A DNA stretch of 64,000 nt, taken from Armatimonadota bacterium (GTDB lineage: Bacteria; Armatimonadota; Chthonomonadetes; Chthonomonadales; Chthonomonadaceae). Shown piece after piece: positions 35,711 through 46,537 of this stretch. Each line of letters begins with the position of its first letter. Position 1 is the stretch's first letter. The position numbers were made by a program, and so were the translations under genes. The stretch lies in contig JAGWMJ010000010.1 of assembly GCA_028871815.1 (NCBI GenBank), positions 62,001 through 126,000 of the forward strand, in the 5' to 3' direction. The notes beneath the pieces are model-generated. The model had not been told where the DNA came from and made no database searches. It saw only the letters and a program-made list of their open reading frames with translations.

Positions 35711-37201
35711 TCAAGCCGTCTTGGCGAGCGCGTCGATGATTTCCTGAACCGAGCCTGCCGCCTCGAGCTCTTTGTTCAGTATCGCCACGTTGGCTTCCAC
35801 CAATGGCTCCAAACTGAGTGCAAGCTCCTGGTCCCCGTGATTAAACAGGATACCGCCCCAGCCCATGCTTCGCACGCTACCGGGGAACCGACGGATAAAC
35901 AGCGCGCGGATCGCGGCACGCGTATCGGCTGGCGCCTGCCGCATCGCCATTTCAACCTGGTCCGGCGTAACCGTGTTACGCATCAGGCCAGCCGCATCGA
36001 GGCCATGAAACAGCCCTACGTCGGGATCCAGATCGTGGTAGGCCAGATCCAGGCTCTGCATGGTTGCGTCCGACCACTTGAGGCCCTCTGCCTCTCGGAA
36101 CGTGTCGAGCAAACGGTACTTCGCCACCCAGTCGATGCGATCAGCCATACCTTCCGGCTCGTCGGCCAACCCATCCAGCGCGTCGCGCCACGCCGCGCAG
36201 GCCCACACGGCATCGGCATCGTCAAGCTGCAGCTGCTGGGCGGCATCCAGGTAGATCCGCTGAACCTCGATGGCCGTCCGCGGCGAGCCATCACAGCACT
36301 CGACCGTCTCTTTCAAGGTGAGATCGCGCGATACGCTGTGCGCCGCTCGTACGGGGTCTACCAGCTCCAGCTTCGGGCTCCATCCGCGTTCAAGCAACTC
36401 CACCACCAGTTGGGTTGCACCCACTTTAAGTGCCGTAGAGTGCTGCGCCATGTTGGCATCGCCGCAGATCACGTGAAGTCGGCGATACTGTGCGATCGAG
36501 GCGTGCGGCTCATCGCGCGTGTTGAATATCGGCCGGTTGTGCAGTGTGTCCACGCTGGCGGCCACCTGGAGAAAGTCGGCCCGCTGCGAGATCTGGAAGC
36601 CCACCCCACCGCGCTCCCGGATCTCCGAGCCTACCTTTCCCGAACCGGCGTAGATCTGCCGTGTTGCCAGAAATGGCAGCATAGCGGAAATGAGCGTTTG
36701 CACCGGCACGCTGCGCTGCATCAGATAGCTCTCGTGAGTGCCGTAGCTGGCTCCGTGAAAGTCGGTGTTGTTCTTGTAGATCGTCACTTTGCGGCCGGAT
36801 GCTTGGCTCAATGCCCGCGCAGAGGCGAGGACGATGCGCTCGCCGGCTGCATCGTGCGCCACCAAATCGCGCAGCGACCTGCACTCCGGCGTGGCGTACT
36901 CCGGGTGGCCGTGATCGTTGTAGAAGCGCGCGCCATTTTCCAGGCATCGATCGCAGCGCGTCTCGCCGGCGCCCGGCGACGCGCCGATGTCGAATTGCGC
37001 GTCGACGGGATCCGAGGCCAGGAACTGCGCCGTAAATCCCCGCATGTCTCGACGGGGCTGCTCGCTCCGGTAGTTCCAGCACCGCACCGACGGAAATGGG
37101 CAGGCGCCGACGAGCGAAACGGTTTCGCGGATCCAGTCGCGAGGGCCACGTCCTTCAACGTGGATGCCGTATTCAGTTTCCAGCCCAGTAAGTCGGTTCA
37201 C
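35711..37201 (-). CDS. dop: Dop-type depupylase homologue (UBact deconjugase)
   Basis: 496 residues from a GTG at 37201, 23 nt after the ATPase stop. Start motif RLTGLETEYGIHVEG. It matches Dop rather than PafA in WNYRSEQPRRDMRGF (compare WDYEVESPLRDARGF in M. tuberculosis), RFYNDHGHPEYATPEC, YKNNTDFHGASYGTHESYLM and INTRDEPH/RRLHVICGDANMA. Dop cleaves the isopeptide bond between the tag and target. Since this UBact already ends in Glu, deconjugation rather than deamidation should be its main job. Confidence 0.9.
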   Translation of the reverse strand: MNRLTGLETEYGIHVEGRGPRDWIRETVSLVGACPFPSVRCWNYRSEQPRRDMRGFTAQFLASDPVDAQFDIGASPGAGETRCDRCLENGARFYNDHGHPEYATPECRSLRDLVAHDAAGERIVLASARALSQASGRKVTIYKNNTDFHGASYGTHESYLMQRSVPVQTLISAMLPFLATRQIYAGSGKVGSEIRERGGVGFQISQRADFLQVAASVDTLHNRPIFNTRDEPHASIAQYRRLHVICGDANMAQHSTALKVGATQLVVELLERGWSPKLELVDPVRAAHSVSRDLTLKETVECCDGSPRTAIEVQRIYLDAAQQLQLDDADAVWACAAWRDALDGLADEPEGMADRIDWVAKYRLLDTFREAEGLKWSDATMQSLDLAYHDLDPDVGLFHGLDAAGLMRNTVTPDQVEMAMRQAPADTRAAIRALFIRRFPGSVRSMGWGGILFNHGDQELALSLEPLVEANVAILNKELEAAGSVQEIIDALAKTA

Positions 37202-37224
37202 GGTTTCCCCGGGAGGCTTCGCCC

Positions 37225-39030
37225 CTAGATTACTTCGGGCGTGGCGCGTGCCCGCTCCGATTTGCGCGGTTTCCGCACGCTGGCAACACGCTCCGGCTCG
37301 TAGTCCAGCAGCTTCAACCAATCCTCGAGCGAATCGCCTTTCGGAAAGATCTCATTCTCGCTATACTCATCAGCCAGCGAAGCAAGCAGATCATCCAGGC
37401 GAATCCCTTCGGTACTCGACATCAACTGGATACTGCGCTTGATCGCCACATTCTTGGCACGCTCGACCACCGACTTGATCAGTGCGCCACTCACGAGATC
37501 GCACCAGTTAAGGACTTCGGAACTGCCGTTTCGAAGCATCACTTCCAGGCAGCGGGTTGCTTCGCTGCGTGTGAACAGAGCGTCGGTCACGCGGTCCAGC
37601 ACTTCATTCAGCGCAGCGTCGGCATCGCCTTTGTGGTCGAGCACAAGCGCCGGATCGATCGGCATGCCGTTCAGGTAGATGCGGAAGATATCTCGCGAAG
37701 CGTTTCGGTCCGGCCGCCCGACTTTCACCTTGCGGTCCAGTCTTTCGGGCCGCAGGATCGCCGGGTCGATGTAGTCCGGCCGGTTTGAGGTCAGCATAAC
37801 CACAACATTGTCCAGCGAAACCAGCCCATCCATCTCCGCGCAGAATTGCGGCACCAGGGTGTTGGAGATGTTCATCCAGCGGCCGCCGGACCTTGTTCGA
37901 AGGAGCGACTCGGCTTCGTCGATGAAGATGAACACGAGGCATCCGTCCGCCGCTTTCTCGCGCGCCTGGGCAAATAGGTCACGCACCATCCGCTCGCTCT
38001 CACCCAGCCACATATTCAGGATTTTTGGTCCGCTGATGTACATGAAGTACTCCTTCACGTTGCGGCCCGTTTCCGTTTTGTATGCCTGCGTGATGTTCCA
38101 CGCGGTCGCCTTGCCGATCAGGGTTTTACCGCAACCGGGCGGACCGTAGAGCAGAATGCCCTTGAGCGGCCGCTTTTTGAAGCGCTCAAAGAGTTCGGCG
38201 TGGAGCAGTGGCGCCTCGATGGCATCGTTAATAACGCGGATCGCTTCGTCCTGTCCGCCGACCATGCTCCAGGGAAGCTCGGGCACCTCCTCCAGGTAGT
38301 AGTCGCTGCCTTGCTGGGCAGGATAGCACTCTATTGCGACCTTGAAGTGCGGTTCGACGCGCACCTCCGCGCCACTCTTGATAATGGCATCACGAATCGA
38401 GTCACCACGATACACGATGCGTGACTGCGATCCCTGAGAGTCGAGCGAAACCCGGAGCCGCCCATCCGGCATCACTTCGTTGACCTTCACCACCGATCCA
38501 CCCTGGGCGTATCCAAGGGCGCCAACAATGGCAAACGCGTCGTTGATCCGTACCTGTACGCCCACTCCGAGCGATTTCTCCTCCATCGCGGGATCGATGT
38601 TGGCTAGATACTCCTGGTCGCCTACAGCAATTCTCGCCGTGCCGGCATGCACCTTTTGCCTCTGTCGCAACCGAGATTTCCGCGAGGCGGCGCTGCCCTC
38701 GGCTGGCGGGTCTTCCGGCGCGACCGTGCCCAGGCACACGGCAATTCGGTTTGCCGGTGCAATCAGTTTGTTATACGCCTCTTCATACTCGGCGATCGCC
38801 TTCACGGCCTCGGCCGTTACGCCCGCCTGCTGTTCAACCAGGCGGTAAATGTGGCGCAACGCACGATTGTACTCGTCACCAGGCCGCGTTACGGAGATCA
38901 GTGCGGTCAGTAGCTCAAGAGCTTCTGAGCTCGCGGCAGTTAATCCGGCATCGCCAGCGTCGGCGACCGATGGGTTCTCATCGTCCTCCGTCAAGCCGTC
39001 ATCCTCGGGTAGTTGTCGATTGCGTCTCAT
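37225..39030 (-). CDS. mpa: Proteasome-associated AAA ATPase (Mpa/ARC)
   Basis: 601 residues. N-terminal helical region (~30-95), then tandem OB domains (~110-230: VAVGDQEYLANIDP-like and RVSLDSQGSQSRIVYRG). AAA domain: Walker A GPPGCGKT (296-303), Walker B FIFIDEAES (D371-E372), SNRPDYIDPAILRPERLDRK with the arginine finger region. Unfolds UBact-tagged proteins into the 20S core. The C-terminus ends RATPEVI and lacks the QYL/HbYX-like gate-opening motif of actinobacterial Mpa. First gene of the operon. Confidence 0.92.
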   Translation of the reverse strand: MRRNRQLPEDDGLTEDDENPSVADAGDAGLTAASSEALELLTALISVTRPGDEYNRALRHIYRLVEQQAGVTAEAVKAIAEYEEAYNKLIAPANRIAVCLGTVAPEDPPAEGSAASRKSRLRQRQKVHAGTARIAVGDQEYLANIDPAMEEKSLGVGVQVRINDAFAIVGALGYAQGGSVVKVNEVMPDGRLRVSLDSQGSQSRIVYRGDSIRDAIIKSGAEVRVEPHFKVAIECYPAQQGSDYYLEEVPELPWSMVGGQDEAIRVINDAIEAPLLHAELFERFKKRPLKGILLYGPPGCGKTLIGKATAWNITQAYKTETGRNVKEYFMYISGPKILNMWLGESERMVRDLFAQAREKAADGCLVFIFIDEAESLLRTRSGGRWMNISNTLVPQFCAEMDGLVSLDNVVVMLTSNRPDYIDPAILRPERLDRKVKVGRPDRNASRDIFRIYLNGMPIDPALVLDHKGDADAALNEVLDRVTDALFTRSEATRCLEVMLRNGSSEVLNWCDLVSGALIKSVVERAKNVAIKRSIQLMSSTEGIRLDDLLASLADEYSENEIFPKGDSLEDWLKLLDYEPERVASVRKPRKSERARATPEVI

Positions 39031-41917: not shown

Positions 41918-42263
41918 TCGCAGATTCGGCGCCGGCGTAAGGTGGGGATGGTGTTCGGGCCATTTTGTGTCGGGAGCCGGACCTGGATGGTTTCGGCGCC
42001 CGCTATGACGCGTTCGTGGAAATCGCCGATTGCATCGCAGCGCCTGCAAAACCCGTTCCTGTGCTGCAGCGGGTACAATGCGCCCGCAGGATACTTAACT
42101 CAGCCTCCTGTGGAACTGCGGTAGCACCACCCGGGTGAGGGGCGAACGGCGGCCCAGTTCCCAAAAGATCAACGGCCGTTGCCGGTTGTGATTACACCAT
42201 GGCGCGCATTTCGCGAAGGCGAAGCGCGCCATATTTGCGCCTATCGGTGATAAAGGGAAGAGG
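41918..42263. other. Intergenic region before the arginine catabolism genes
   Basis: 346 nt without a convincing gene; small open frames here lack ribosome sites and coding character. The only clear structure is the hairpin at 42199-42232. No T-run terminator or clear promoter hexamer pair was found by eye. Confidence 0.5.
42199..42232 (+). promoter_or_regulatory. Long two-part hairpin upstream of the ornithine cyclodeaminase-type gene
   Basis: ATGGCGCGC (42199-42207) pairs perfectly with GCGCGCCAT (42224-42232). Inside it TTCGC pairs with GCGAA around a GAAG loop, with a 2-nt bulge. Fourteen base pairs in all, ending 31 nt before the GTG at 42264. No T-tract follows, so it is more likely a leader structure or operator than a terminator. 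Confidence 0.5.
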
Positions 42264-43505
42264 GTGAAGGCAATGGCCGCAGAGCTGGTCCACCTGGATG
42301 GTCATATCGTAGATTCGCTCACACTCTCAAAGGTCCTCGACATCATCCTGCTTGAGGATGCACGGTACGAGATCGAGCACTTCCGGATCGGTGCGACACG
42401 GTTTGACACGAGCCACGCAGAAATCCTCGTGATCGCCGACGATCCCGCCAAACTGGAGCATGTGCTCCACCGGATCGGCCAGCATGGCGCCGTCCGCGCG
42501 AGCGGTGAGGCCATAATCGCTCCATCACCGGCAGATGGGGTGTTTCCCGACGGCTTTTATGCCACCACCAATCTCGAGACCGCCGTACACGTAAAACGAG
42601 CGTGGATTCCGGTTCCTAATATCGAAATGGATTGCGGACTTGTTCTGGACACGAAAGCGAGCCCTGTAACCGTCCGCTGCGTGCCGATGCATCGGGTCAA
42701 ACGTGGCGAAGCCGTGCTGGTGGGCGATGCCGGCGTACGCGTAACGCCGATGGCGCGCCGTGAGGCCGGTGACGCCTTTGCCTTCATGGGAAGCGATGTC
42801 TCCACAGAGCGCCCGAAGGAGCTGGTCGTCCGGGCGATCGCCCAGGCGATGCTTGAGGCTCATGCCGAGCGAATGCGTGTACTGTTCGTTGGCGGGCCGG
42901 CCGTTCTGCACACCGGCGCCGGACACTATCTGGAAGCCATAATCCGCGCCGGGCACATCGATGTGCTATTTGCCGGTAACGCCCTGGCAACCCACGATAT
43001 CGAACACAGCCTCTTCGGCACCTCGCTTGGAGTCGACACGGCGACGGGCCTGGGCTCGGCTCACGGGCACGAACACCACCTGCGGGCGATCAACACGATA
43101 CGTCGCGCCGGCAGCATCCGGAGAGCCGTGGATCGCGGGATCCTGAAATCCGGCGTGATGCACGCGTGCTTCACGTGCGGCATCGACGTGGTTCTTGCCG
43201 GCAGCATTCGTGATGACGGACCGCTGCCCGATGTGATCACTGACTCGGTGAAGGCACAGGATGCCATGCGCGAATTGGTGCCTGGAGTTGGTGTGGCGCT
43301 GATGGTGGCCACTACGCTTCACTCGGTAGCCACCGGCAACCTGCTGCCCGCTTCCGTGCGAACGGTATGCGTGGATTCCGATGCCGACACGGTCATCAAG
43401 TTGATGGACCGTGGTACACATCAAGCATTCGGACTGGTGACGGACTGCGAGTTCTTTTTGAAGGAACTTGCCGCAAATCTGCCGGGCGTGGAAACAGCGC
43501 TTTGA
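42264..43505 (+). CDS. LOR/SDH-family (TIGR00300) ornithine cyclodeaminase-type protein
   Basis: 413 residues; GTG start at 42264 with an in-frame ATG at 42273. The N-terminal LOR-type domain has LVHLDGHIVDSLTLSKVLD and DTSHAEILV. The middle and C-terminal parts carry FVGGPAVLHTGAGHYL, NALATHDIEHSLFGTSLG and FTCGIDVVLAGSIRDDGPLP, the nucleotide-binding and substrate region of the family. In cyanobacterial AgrE this domain converts ornithine to proline plus ammonia. The TGA stop overlaps the TTG start of the dihydrolase gene (TTGA), giving strict coupling. Confidence 0.82.
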   Translation: MKAMAAELVHLDGHIVDSLTLSKVLDIILLEDARYEIEHFRIGATRFDTSHAEILVIADDPAKLEHVLHRIGQHGAVRASGEAIIAPSPADGVFPDGFYATTNLETAVHVKRAWIPVPNIEMDCGLVLDTKASPVTVRCVPMHRVKRGEAVLVGDAGVRVTPMARREAGDAFAFMGSDVSTERPKELVVRAIAQAMLEAHAERMRVLFVGGPAVLHTGAGHYLEAIIRAGHIDVLFAGNALATHDIEHSLFGTSLGVDTATGLGSAHGHEHHLRAINTIRRAGSIRRAVDRGILKSGVMHACFTCGIDVVLAGSIRDDGPLPDVITDSVKAQDAMRELVPGVGVALMVATTLHSVATGNLLPASVRTVCVDSDADTVIKLMDRGTHQAFGLVTDCEFFLKELAANLPGVETAL

Positions 43506-44353
43506 ACGCGCGACCGTTGGCAGTGCGGCCCACGGCCGGCTGCAGGCTGTTGATGTGCCCGCCAACCGCGTACGGCGTCAAGTATGAAATAAACCCCTGG
43601 ATGCACATCGCCCGCCAACCGGACCTGGACCTGGCAGCAAGCCAATGGCGCAAACTGTACCAGACATTGACGGAGAATGCCGGCGCAACGGTGGAGCTGA
43701 TTGAACAGGCGCTGGAGACGCCCGACATGGTGTTTACCGCGAATGCCGGCCTGGTGGTCGGCAATATGGCGGTCGTTTCACGCTTCCGCCATGCCGAGCG
43801 CCAGGGAGAGGAACGTTGGTTTCGAGCGTGGTTTGAGGCGGCCGGTTACAACGTGCTCACGCTGCCGGACGATTGCTATTTCGAGGGCGAAGGCGACGCG
43901 CTGATGGCCGGCGACAGGCTGGTAGCCGGCTACCTGAAGCGCAGTGACATCGCATCCCATATGCGGATTGCAGACTGGCTTCACATTGAGGTTCTCTCTC
44001 TGGAGTTGACCGACGACCGTTGGTACCATCTGGACACCTGCTTCTTCCCACTGGATGGCGCTACCGTCGCCTACCATCCGGAGGCCTTCGACCGATACGC
44101 GCGGGAAGTTATTCGCAGCAACTTCCAGACGATCGAAGTCAATGCTGAAGAGGCAGCTCGATTTGCATGTAATGCAGTTTCTGTTGGGAACAGCGTCGTG
44201 CTGCCCGCTGGCTGCCCTGAGCTGGCAGGGCGGCTTGAACAACTAGGCCGCACCGTCTTCAGCGTAGATTTGTCTGAGTTCCTGAAGGCGGGCGGCGCAG
44301 CGAAGTGCCTCGCGCTTTACGCTCCCGAACCAGTTGCGGCAGTGCAGCCTTGA
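43502..44353 (+). CDS. Arginine dihydrolase-like guanidine-modifying enzyme (ArgZ/DDAH family)
   Basis: 283 residues from a TTG at 43502; GTG 43520 is an alternative. Family start LLMCPPTAYGVKYEINPWM. TPDMVFTANAG (N81) has the Asn form that I recall for arginine dihydrolases, where deiminases have Asp. ECHxx-type His is in WYHLDTCFFPL, and the nucleophile is C269 in GGAAKCLAL. Expected reaction: arginine to ornithine, CO2 and two ammonia. The C-terminal 95 nt overlap the end of a convergent gene. With the upstream gene it would convert arginine to proline and ammonia. Confidence 0.82.
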   Translation: MNARPLAVRPTAGCRLLMCPPTAYGVKYEINPWMHIARQPDLDLAASQWRKLYQTLTENAGATVELIEQALETPDMVFTANAGLVVGNMAVVSRFRHAERQGEERWFRAWFEAAGYNVLTLPDDCYFEGEGDALMAGDRLVAGYLKRSDIASHMRIADWLHIEVLSLELTDDRWYHLDTCFFPLDGATVAYHPEAFDRYAREVIRSNFQTIEVNAEEAARFACNAVSVGNSVVLPAGCPELAGRLEQLGRTVFSVDLSEFLKAGGAAKCLALYAPEPVAAVQP

Positions 44354-45623
44354 CGCTCGCAGCCAGCAGAGAACCCAGCCCGCTTCCGTAAAACGACATT
44401 CCCGCTTCGTAGTTGCCCAGGCGGTATTCCGACGCTTCCAAGGCGTATGCCAGCCAGTCATTCGTCAGAGCGACCACGGCCGGATACCGCACTCCTTCCA
44501 GCCTGGCATCGTGCTCGATGCTTAGTCCGAGCGCGCCAGTCGGTTCGCAAGGCAGGCCTGCAAGAACGATGGGTCCCAGGCGAATCAGACTGATGGTAGT
44601 TGCGCGAGGCATGAGTTGGCGTACCAGCTCACCGGCCTTTTCGAAGGTAATTCCGAGGCCGGAGGCCGAGAGCAGGTAGAGGCCGTTGGGTCTGGGCTCC
44701 GGCAGCGACACGCGCACGGGCTGGAGCGCGAGCCGCGGCGCCGGAACGAAGTCGTTACGATATGCCAGCCGCAGCGCCTGAGTGGCCACAGCGCGGCCGT
44801 AGCTGGTAACCCGTTCTGATTCGGTGGATCCCGTTTCACCAGCCGGCGCCGCGTCACCCTCGGCCCCATTCAGGAACAGGCAGCAACTACCCTGTCCCAG
44901 TTTCTGTTCGACGGCGGCTTCCATCACTCCCGGCCAGTCGGCGCTGATCTCCATCATGGAGCTGCTGAATAGCGTGGGATGAGCCGCGAACACCACCACG
45001 CATGCACTCCGACCCGCCTTGACGGGCTGGAACGTGAGCACCGTCATCATGCGGTCGATGGATGGGCCACCACGTCGGTTGCGATTGAGGCCCTTAACGC
45101 TTGCTTGTGCTGCAGCCATGCGTACCGGCACGAGCCTGTCGGCGGCTTCCGCGATTGTCAGGGCTATTCTGGAGGCGGTAAACCGCAACAGTGGGCCGTC
45201 GAATGACGACCAACCCTGAAAGTGGAACGTGTTCGCAGCATCCATCGCGAGCGGATCGGGCGCCGAGTGTGTGTGCGTAGCGCTCAGGAACAGCGCCCCG
45301 GCCAGGAGCGGATGGCGCCGAAGTACCAGGTCATGCCTGACGGCCTGCGTGATGCCCGCTGGTAGAAAGCAGAGATCGACGGAGACCACAGCAACCCTTC
45401 GCCCGCCCTGCGCTAACACAAGCGCACGAGCGAAGATGGGATCGTGAACCCCGGTGGCGGCCGCGCCACGGCGGGCCGCATATCCACCTAATGGAACCAT
45501 CATTTTTGCAAGCGGTGGCGTGATTGAGACGGAAGCCACTCCGGCAAGTAGCGGTTTCGGTGGTCGAATCGGCCGGGCGGGTCGCATCAACGGCGCCGCG
45601 AGAAGCGCGAACAGCGGAATCAT
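44259..45623 (-). CDS. Neutral/alkaline ceramidase-like hydrolase
   Basis: 454 residues from the ATG at 45623, overlapping the kinase stop (ATGA). The frame is open 49 codons upstream inside the kinase gene. A short hydrophobic N-terminus may be a signal peptide. Motifs of the ceramidase N-terminal domain: GVASVSITPP, MVPLGGYAARRG, VAVVSVDLCFLP, FLSATHTHSAPD (zinc His pair), and FLNGAEGDAAPAG. It is shorter than true ceramidases (~650), as in many uncharacterised bacterial homologues. Substrate unknown. Tail-to-tail overlap with the dihydrolase gene. Confidence 0.68.
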   Translation of the reverse strand: MIPLFALLAAPLMRPARPIRPPKPLLAGVASVSITPPLAKMMVPLGGYAARRGAAATGVHDPIFARALVLAQGGRRVAVVSVDLCFLPAGITQAVRHDLVLRRHPLLAGALFLSATHTHSAPDPLAMDAANTFHFQGWSSFDGPLLRFTASRIALTIAEAADRLVPVRMAAAQASVKGLNRNRRGGPSIDRMMTVLTFQPVKAGRSACVVVFAAHPTLFSSSMMEISADWPGVMEAAVEQKLGQGSCCLFLNGAEGDAAPAGETGSTESERVTSYGRAVATQALRLAYRNDFVPAPRLALQPVRVSLPEPRPNGLYLLSASGLGITFEKAGELVRQLMPRATTISLIRLGPIVLAGLPCEPTGALGLSIEHDARLEGVRYPAVVALTNDWLAYALEASEYRLGNYEAGMSFYGSGLGSLLAASVKAALPQLVRERKARGTSLRRPPSGTQTNLR

Positions 45624-46537
45624 CCCGGCTCTCGCTGAATCGTCAAACCTTCCAGCTCGAAGCGAAACGGAATGATGCGAGCACCGCGGTTGTGCAGTAC
45701 CTCCGCAAGCGTGGCGCGCCGACCGGGCTCGGACAAAAACAGGAGACAGCCCCCACCGCCGGCGCCGCAAGCCTTGCCGGCCGCAGCGCCGGAGACGTGG
45801 GCCAGGCCGAACAGTTCCTCCATCTGCTGGTTTGTCACGCTGGAGTCAAGTTGCTTTTGCGCCGCCCAGTTTCGATTGAGTAACCGTCCGAACTCTTCGA
45901 TGTCGCCTGCTGGCAGCGCCTGTCGCATCTCGTTCGCGCAGGCTCGCAGCGTATACAGGGCGCTTACGGTTTCAGCGGCGCCACGACGGAACGCTCCCCA
46001 AACGTGCTCATGGATGTTTCCGGATAGGCGCGGTTTGCCCGTGTAACAGAGCACCAGCCGATCCTCCAGCGCCTCGACCACCGCCGGCGGCAGCGTCAGC
46101 CTTTCCACCTCCACGGTATCGGTAAAGGTCATGAAGTTGAAACCGCCGTATGCGCTTGCATATTGGTCCTGTTTGCCGCCAAGGATGCCGAGCATCTCTT
46201 CAAGCTGGTAGGCCAGTTCCGCGATCTGTGCGCGATCTGCATCCGTCACGATGTTCGATTTGACCAGGCTCAGCCAGACGACATTGAGCGCCGAGGATGT
46301 TCCAAGACCGGACCCCGACGGCAGGTCGCAATGGTAATCCACCGAAAGATCGTGCTGTGAGGCGCTCGGCTGCATTCCGTCGTCTACATCCGTGTCTACC
46401 GTTTCAAGCGTTCCGCGCACGTAGTGGTTGATCGCAGCGTTCAGCACGGCGCCACCGGCTCCGTGCGCGAAGATGCCGACATCGGTCCACCCGCCAGCGA
46501 AATCAATTCGAACCGGCGCCCGACTGGTTATACGCAT
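45620..46537 (-). CDS. GHMP-family sugar kinase (heptose/fucose kinase-like)
   Basis: 305 residues. RAPVRIDFAGGWTDV is the N-terminal motif of D-glycero-D-manno-heptose-7-phosphate kinase and fucokinase-like proteins. The ATP loop is LPSGSGLGTSSALNV and the C-terminal motif GKACGAGGGGCLLFL. It phosphorylates a sugar anomeric position, probably feeding nucleotide-sugar synthesis. The adjoining genes are a second GHMP kinase upstream and the ceramidase-like gene downstream. Confidence 0.85.
   Translation of the reverse strand: MRITSRAPVRIDFAGGWTDVGIFAHGAGGAVLNAAINHYVRGTLETVDTDVDDGMQPSASQHDLSVDYHCDLPSGSGLGTSSALNVVWLSLVKSNIVTDADRAQIAELAYQLEEMLGILGGKQDQYASAYGGFNFMTFTDTVEVERLTLPPAVVEALEDRLVLCYTGKPRLSGNIHEHVWGAFRRGAAETVSALYTLRACANEMRQALPAGDIEEFGRLLNRNWAAQKQLDSSVTNQQMEELFGLAHVSGAAAGKACGAGGGGCLLFLSEPGRRATLAEVLHNRGARIIPFRFELEGLTIQREPG

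Follow-up and report, generated by a model that had tools for sequence, protein, structure and literature searches.

An adjoining pair of genes in an Armatimonadota bacterium of the family Chthonomonadaceae constitutes a real and well conserved operon: a split relative of the fused cyanobacterial proteins AgrE and ArgZ, widespread, and chemically of the expected kind. (The window in which it lies is a stretch of 64,000 nucleotides of contig JAGWMJ010000010.1; the genome to which the window belongs, G000 in our numbering, is 98.3% complete.) The two genes probably make up a translationally coupled pathway from arginine through ornithine to proline, with the cyclodeaminase supplying the proline; its activities, coupling, role and cofactor are what we infer. 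Homology, fold and residues give the predicted chemistry good support: the protein of gene 2 would hydrolyze arginine twice, generating ornithine, CO2 and two molecules of ammonia, and the protein of gene 1 would cyclize ornithine to proline with the loss of a third. The overlap of stop and start codons would couple translation of the two genes. In the window genome the cyclodeaminase would most likely serve to supply proline, the dihydrolase feeding it arginine-derived ornithine and releasing nitrogen.

The gene pair and its junction

Gene 1 (42264..43505, plus strand; 413 amino acids, GTG start) encodes an ornithine cyclodeaminase of the TIGR00300 type (LOR/SDH, C-terminal in AgrE and ArgZ), and gene 2 (43502..44353, plus strand; 283 amino acids, TTG start) an arginine dihydrolase of the type that is N-terminal in those proteins. 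Open reading frames and profile matches confirm what had been predicted, two adjoining genes on one strand with these domains, and also the TTGA overlap between them, at 43502..43505 on the plus strand, whose TTG is the start of gene 2 and whose TGA is the stop of gene 1. The earlier start that went with the original prediction, at 42199, has to be given up: the ATG there is out of frame with the cyclodeaminase, whose frame opens at GTG 42264. (An alternative start, ATG 42273, fits the point at which the alignment with relatives begins.) An ATGA stands at the same junction in the close kin L023, L024 and L026, lending support to a gene 2 start at TTG 43502, and in Nitrospira moscoviensis (L126), which like its relatives has a split operon with the same gene order and an ATGA stop/start overlap. 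Among 57 split pairs surveyed, stop and start overlap or touch in 23, and in 47 there is a potential start no more than 30 bp away, the start codon having been chosen mechanically as the nearest one.

Some features of the surroundings can be recorded here. A neutral/alkaline ceramidase-like gene on the minus strand (window 44259-45770; PF04734, 82 bits) converges on gene 2, and the 3' ends of the two open frames overlap. Also on the minus strand (window 35711-39030), a proteasomal AAA ATPase has a Pup-ligase family gene (PF03136, 517 bits) as its neighbor. A search of the whole window against Rfam gave nothing at the gathering threshold.

Assigning the two proteins

Both genes match AgrE (Anabaena; 6lrf, 6lrg, 6lrh) and ArgZ (Synechocystis Sll1336; 6juy, 6juz, 6jv0, 6jv1) by sequence, fold and residues in the comparison by alignment and structure that the original prediction had proposed. 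Both domains, the catalytic residues and the folds are shared, with 47-50% identity for the dihydrolase and 32-38% for the cyclodeaminase in Foldseek alignments. The difference lies in the architecture: AgrE and ArgZ are single polypeptides with the dihydrolase first, and the window has two genes with the cyclodeaminase first. In plasmid records all matches to gene 2 fall under 60% identity, and gene 1 has one weak match, covering 77% of its length.

Gene 1 belongs to TIGR00300 by score (462.3 bits, cut-off 410.8, spanning model positions 2-402 of 407) and scores 360 bits with the bifunctional model NF052231. Its product is composed of an N-terminal LOR/SDH region (PF04455, residues 7-103, 42282..42572 on the plus strand), PF21571, and an ArgZ-like C-terminal Rossmann domain (PF21570, residues 191-402, 42834..43469 on the plus strand). 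Sequence and fold lead to the same entries in the PDB, 3c2q, 6lrf and 6juy. The best sequence match, at 324.6 bits, is 3c2q, one of the archaeal stand-alone LOR/SDH proteins (TIGR00300), which are likewise unfused; it comes from Methanococcus maripaludis and was entered in the PDB as a conserved putative protein. Next come AgrE and ArgZ, in their C-terminal parts. The AF2 model (mean pLDDT 88.4) finds 3c2q, AgrE and ArgZ as its top folds, with TM scores by query of 0.50-0.73 (Foldseek), and after them deoxyhypusine synthase, an NAD enzyme; the large rmsd to the fused chains suggests that the arrangement of the domains differs or is mispredicted.

The gene 2 product aligns with ArgZ over residues 14-278 and with AgrE over 11-278, and scores 257.6 bits against Synechocystis ArgZ (6jv0). 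For its AF2 model (mean pLDDT 93.0, from 21 sequences) Foldseek gives TM 0.89/0.93 to 6jv1 and, by query length, TM 0.74-0.81 to the listed chains of dimethylargininase (DDAH). Asn31, Asn81, Glu128, Asp132, His176, Asp178 and Cys269 are the same in all 21 relatives compared. Counterparts of the catalytic residues of ArgZ, which are necessary for a dihydrolase and not specific to it, are all present on the plus strand: Asn81 of the FTANAG motif (43742..43744), equivalent by alignment to Asn71 of ArgZ; Glu128 (43883..43885); His176 (44027..44029); and Cys269 (44306..44308), the predicted nucleophile, which alignment and fold comparison equate with Cys264 of ArgZ and AgrE. (Structure titles describe mutants with trapped ligands: 6juz, N71S; 6jv1, C264S; 6lrh, C264A.)

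Is this protein, then, an arginine dihydrolase or a dimethylargininase? It falls short of the cut-offs of all three pertinent curated models: 300.5 bits against 1025 for NF052231, 292.7 against 450 for NF052232 (arginine dihydrolase) and 265.2 against 300 for NF045659 (DDAH), with the dihydrolase score only 27 bits above the DDAH score. NF052231 specifies both activities in one polypeptide, and here they are assigned to two genes in different frames. The NF052232 cut-off appears to have been set for cyanobacteria, since Nitrospira moscoviensis falls short of it (287.4) and a Nostoc protein passes (535.3); 61 of 291 Armatimonadota genomes have matches to this model and none of the 291 reaches the cut-off.

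The original prediction had singled out the Asn of FTANAG and Cys269. Alignment with ArgZ and relatives shows both to be present; as a marker of dihydrolase activity the Asn fails. It is common to six of six actinobacterial DDAH-type proteins (taken from plasmid records; the two scored for NF045659 reach 432 and 437 bits), and Asn81 as proof of activity was rejected on finding that these proteins share it along with the full catalytic set. The Asn speaks against the ordinary Asp-type deiminases, not against the DDAH type, which has it too. Asn71 is reportedly named as the determinant in the ArgZ paper, where dihydrolases are also said to be widespread in bacteria and metazoans.

A reading in which the gene 2 product is a dimethylargininase, or simply a deiminase, and gene 1 takes its ornithine from another source, can appeal to this common catalytic set and to a DDAH score lying 35 bits under the cut-off. 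It nonetheless appears quite improbable. The gene 2 product scores higher with the ArgZ models than with the DDAH model, and around the shared catalytic set its residues differ from those of the DDAH-type proteins: at 36 discriminating positions (consistent differences between 13 cyanobacterial proteins and the six DDAH-type ones) it is ArgZ-like at 20 (A82-G83, F127, Y144, C180 and C223 among them), DDAH-like at 7 and like neither at 9. Its type is fixedly paired with a cyclodeaminase in 27 genomes, and four DDAH-type genes have no cyclodeaminase annotated among their neighbors in what is an incomplete annotation. Citrulline, the product of a deiminase, is no substrate for an ornithine cyclodeaminase and would be unusable by the partner. 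The 20-to-7 division of residues, the pairing with a cyclodeaminase and the order of the scores favor a dihydrolase without proving it.

Split and fused forms

The adjacent pair occurs in 27 of 291 Armatimonadota genomes, always with the cyclodeaminase first, on the same strand and unfused, with 11-89 bp between the domain matches. (The pair was listed for 28 genomes; G163 is excluded, its two genes being 1.39 Mb apart.) TIGR00300 matches over the cut-off are found in 69 of the 291; a longer list of 78 cyclodeaminase genomes, used below where stated, includes partial genes and low-scoring variants, rows at about 45 bits or less, nearly all short pieces of another family, having been dropped. 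The best 80 of at least 585 confirmed named loci divide into 28 in which dihydrolase and cyclodeaminase are fused, all cyanobacterial; 40 split loci from seven phyla, all with the order cyclodeaminase-dihydrolase (L085 and L087 with a partial cyclodeaminase match only); and 12 with no cyclodeaminase in the locus, some of these being short contigs. The recurrence of order and strand in 27 of 291 genomes and in 40 of the 80 named loci argues that the pairing is not due to chance.

What had been claimed was a split, order-reversed module outside cyanobacteria. The two genes are there in the order opposite to that of AgrE and ArgZ, and the bacterium is no cyanobacterium; the implied rarity does not hold, however, for the same order is seen in 40 of 40 unfused loci and in the 27 genomes, and the dihydrolase or the pair is common, occurring in at least seven phyla besides cyanobacteria. 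(A fusion hidden by frameshift in Armatimonadota was considered and rejected: frames and stops show separate genes.) "Order-reversed" in fact describes the cyanobacteria better than it describes the window locus. In the trees of both the dihydrolase (77 rows) and the cyclodeaminase (79 rows), a branch with support 99 sets 13 fused proteins apart from the rest; these and a residue-comparison tree (65 rows) are "quick" searches on hand-picked loci, and they have open forks, long branches and an uncertain root. A single fusion accompanied by a change of order on the cyanobacterial line would be the simplest reading of the direction of change.

One genome deserves separate mention. The unfused cyclodeaminase of G018 (L033, L006) clusters with the fused proteins of cyanobacteria (support 100), and its dihydrolase falls in the clade next to the cyanobacterial one; the two genes are on different contigs.

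Probable role in proline supply, and the cofactor

In the window genome neither ProB nor ProC has a match above the cut-off (best E 3.4e-4 and 3.5e-5, respectively). Both are absent from 119 of the 291 Armatimonadota genomes, and 45 of these have the cyclodeaminase. Outside three families (f14, f15 and f17), TIGR00300 genes are carried by 28 of the 33 genomes that lack ProB and ProC, by a raw count in which related genomes are not independent; the five exceptions are G162, G165, G063 and G218, which are 61-69% complete, and G038 (97%). The association, strong in that group, is weak inside those families, where the cyclodeaminase is found in 17 of 86 (17 of 77 in f15, 0 of 8 in f14, 0 of 1 in f17). 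It is also found in 24 of the 149 Armatimonadota genomes with proB, and of the 27 genomes that have the adjacent pair, 18 retain ProB as well as ProC. (Presence lists were compiled by hand from the result tables and may be off by a genome or two; their totals of 149 for proB and 165 for larC match the tables, and that for proC is 165 by a looser rule, E below about 1e-25, and 161 over the cut-off.) The 69 genomes of f14, f15 and f17 that have no ProB, ProC or TIGR00300 match stand apart: among those sampled, a PF02423 protein is present in some and absent in many.

The absence of ProB and ProC and the 28-of-33 association point to proline synthesis and not to catabolism only. Arginine catabolism by way of proline is possible as well, given a proline dehydrogenase match elsewhere in the window genome (125 bits). 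There is precedent for an operon that would be purely catabolic: the cyanobacterial AgrE-PutA pathway has been described as running from arginine through proline to glutamate (PMC8262935), with nitrogen release, and retention of ProB and ProC in 18 of the 27 pair genomes is compatible with such a function. A purely catabolic operon is nevertheless unlikely in a genome with no ProB or ProC above the cut-off, which would then have to obtain its proline from elsewhere or by uptake.

A mu-crystallin-type protein encoded at G000:C2:183349-184257 is a weak rival as proline source. It matches PF02423 at 190.7 bits, and its nearest NCBIfam model bears the name "ornithine cyclodeaminase family protein" (203.7 bits against a cut-off of 417); it stays far under every curated NCBIfam cut-off. 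That this protein makes the proline, leaving the window cyclodeaminase with some other substrate, is very improbable: four genomes without ProB, ProC or a PF02423 match (G048, G036, G248 and G204) carry the TIGR00300 gene all the same. Proline supply by the window cyclodeaminase is the reading we prefer. In its own surroundings (L001:437-2238, on G000:C2) the mu-crystallin/ornithine-cyclodeaminase-family gene follows LarC1 after about 5 bp, on the same strand.

What cofactor does the cyclodeaminase use? The NCBIfam name of TIGR00300 calls the family nickel-pincer-nucleotide dependent. For the AgrE cyclodeaminase, in contrast, NAD(H) has reportedly been the finding. AgrE was crystallized with ornithine and NAD+, by the title of 6lrg. 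No paper describing an ornithine cyclodeaminase that depends on the nickel pincer came up in a literature search; one report says only that Haloferax may have a nickel-pincer enzyme (PMC8305020). In favor of nickel, the window genome has larB, larE and both halves of a split larC, on other contigs than the gene pair. The Nitrospira moscoviensis group, which counts on the same side, differs in having larB and larC at the locus itself: in nine Nitrospirota loci (L094, L105, L110, L111, L120, L126, L134, L138 and L140) the two sit some 2-5 kb downstream of the dihydrolase gene. The cyclodeaminase is present in eight of the nine, L138 being the one without it.

Against nickel, of 45 cyclodeaminase-bearing Armatimonadota genomes tested for all three genes, 24 have larB, larC and larE (counting G035, whose larB is in two pieces below the cut-off) and 21 have none of them over the cut-off; 17 of the 21 are also without ProB and ProC. 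Comparing 17 cyclodeaminases from lar-plus genomes with 12 from lar-minus genomes gave only one difference, a conservative one: among the residues conserved in 90% of the former, just one (Leu to Ile) is lost in most of the latter. For nickel, in 47 of the best 80 named loci, larC is found in all 28 genomes with the fused form, which is cyanobacterial, and in 12 of 19 with split genes. The notion that lar genes track the cyclodeaminase fared weakly in Armatimonadota, where larC is widespread anyway (165 of 291): it is present in 52 of the 78 genomes on the longer cyclodeaminase list and in 113 of the 213 others.

The larC gene of the window genome has a peculiarity of its own. At L163:830-1783 (G000:C4:9829-10779) its C-terminal half follows a MogA-like molybdopterin-binding domain in one fused protein (PF00994 + PF01969), and a separate gene on another contig encodes the first half. 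All 17 genomes of the family have a match to the fusion protein, and in nearly all of them the match covers both parts.

It is tempting to go further and to regard the operon as a general bacterial replacement for ProB-ProA-ProC, yielding proline from ornithine and arginine, whose cyclodeaminase, in the many lar-minus lineages or in all, is free of the nickel pincer and uses one and the same active site with NAD+; in this combined form the proposition is doubtful.

What is presumed to be a cyanobacterial specialty now appears to be a derived version of a two-gene module that is widespread. For bacteria that lack ProB and ProC the module offers a proline route that can be tested. The interest of the finding is moderate and resides in the link to proline and, most of all, in the conflict that it exposes about which cofactor a curated enzyme family uses.
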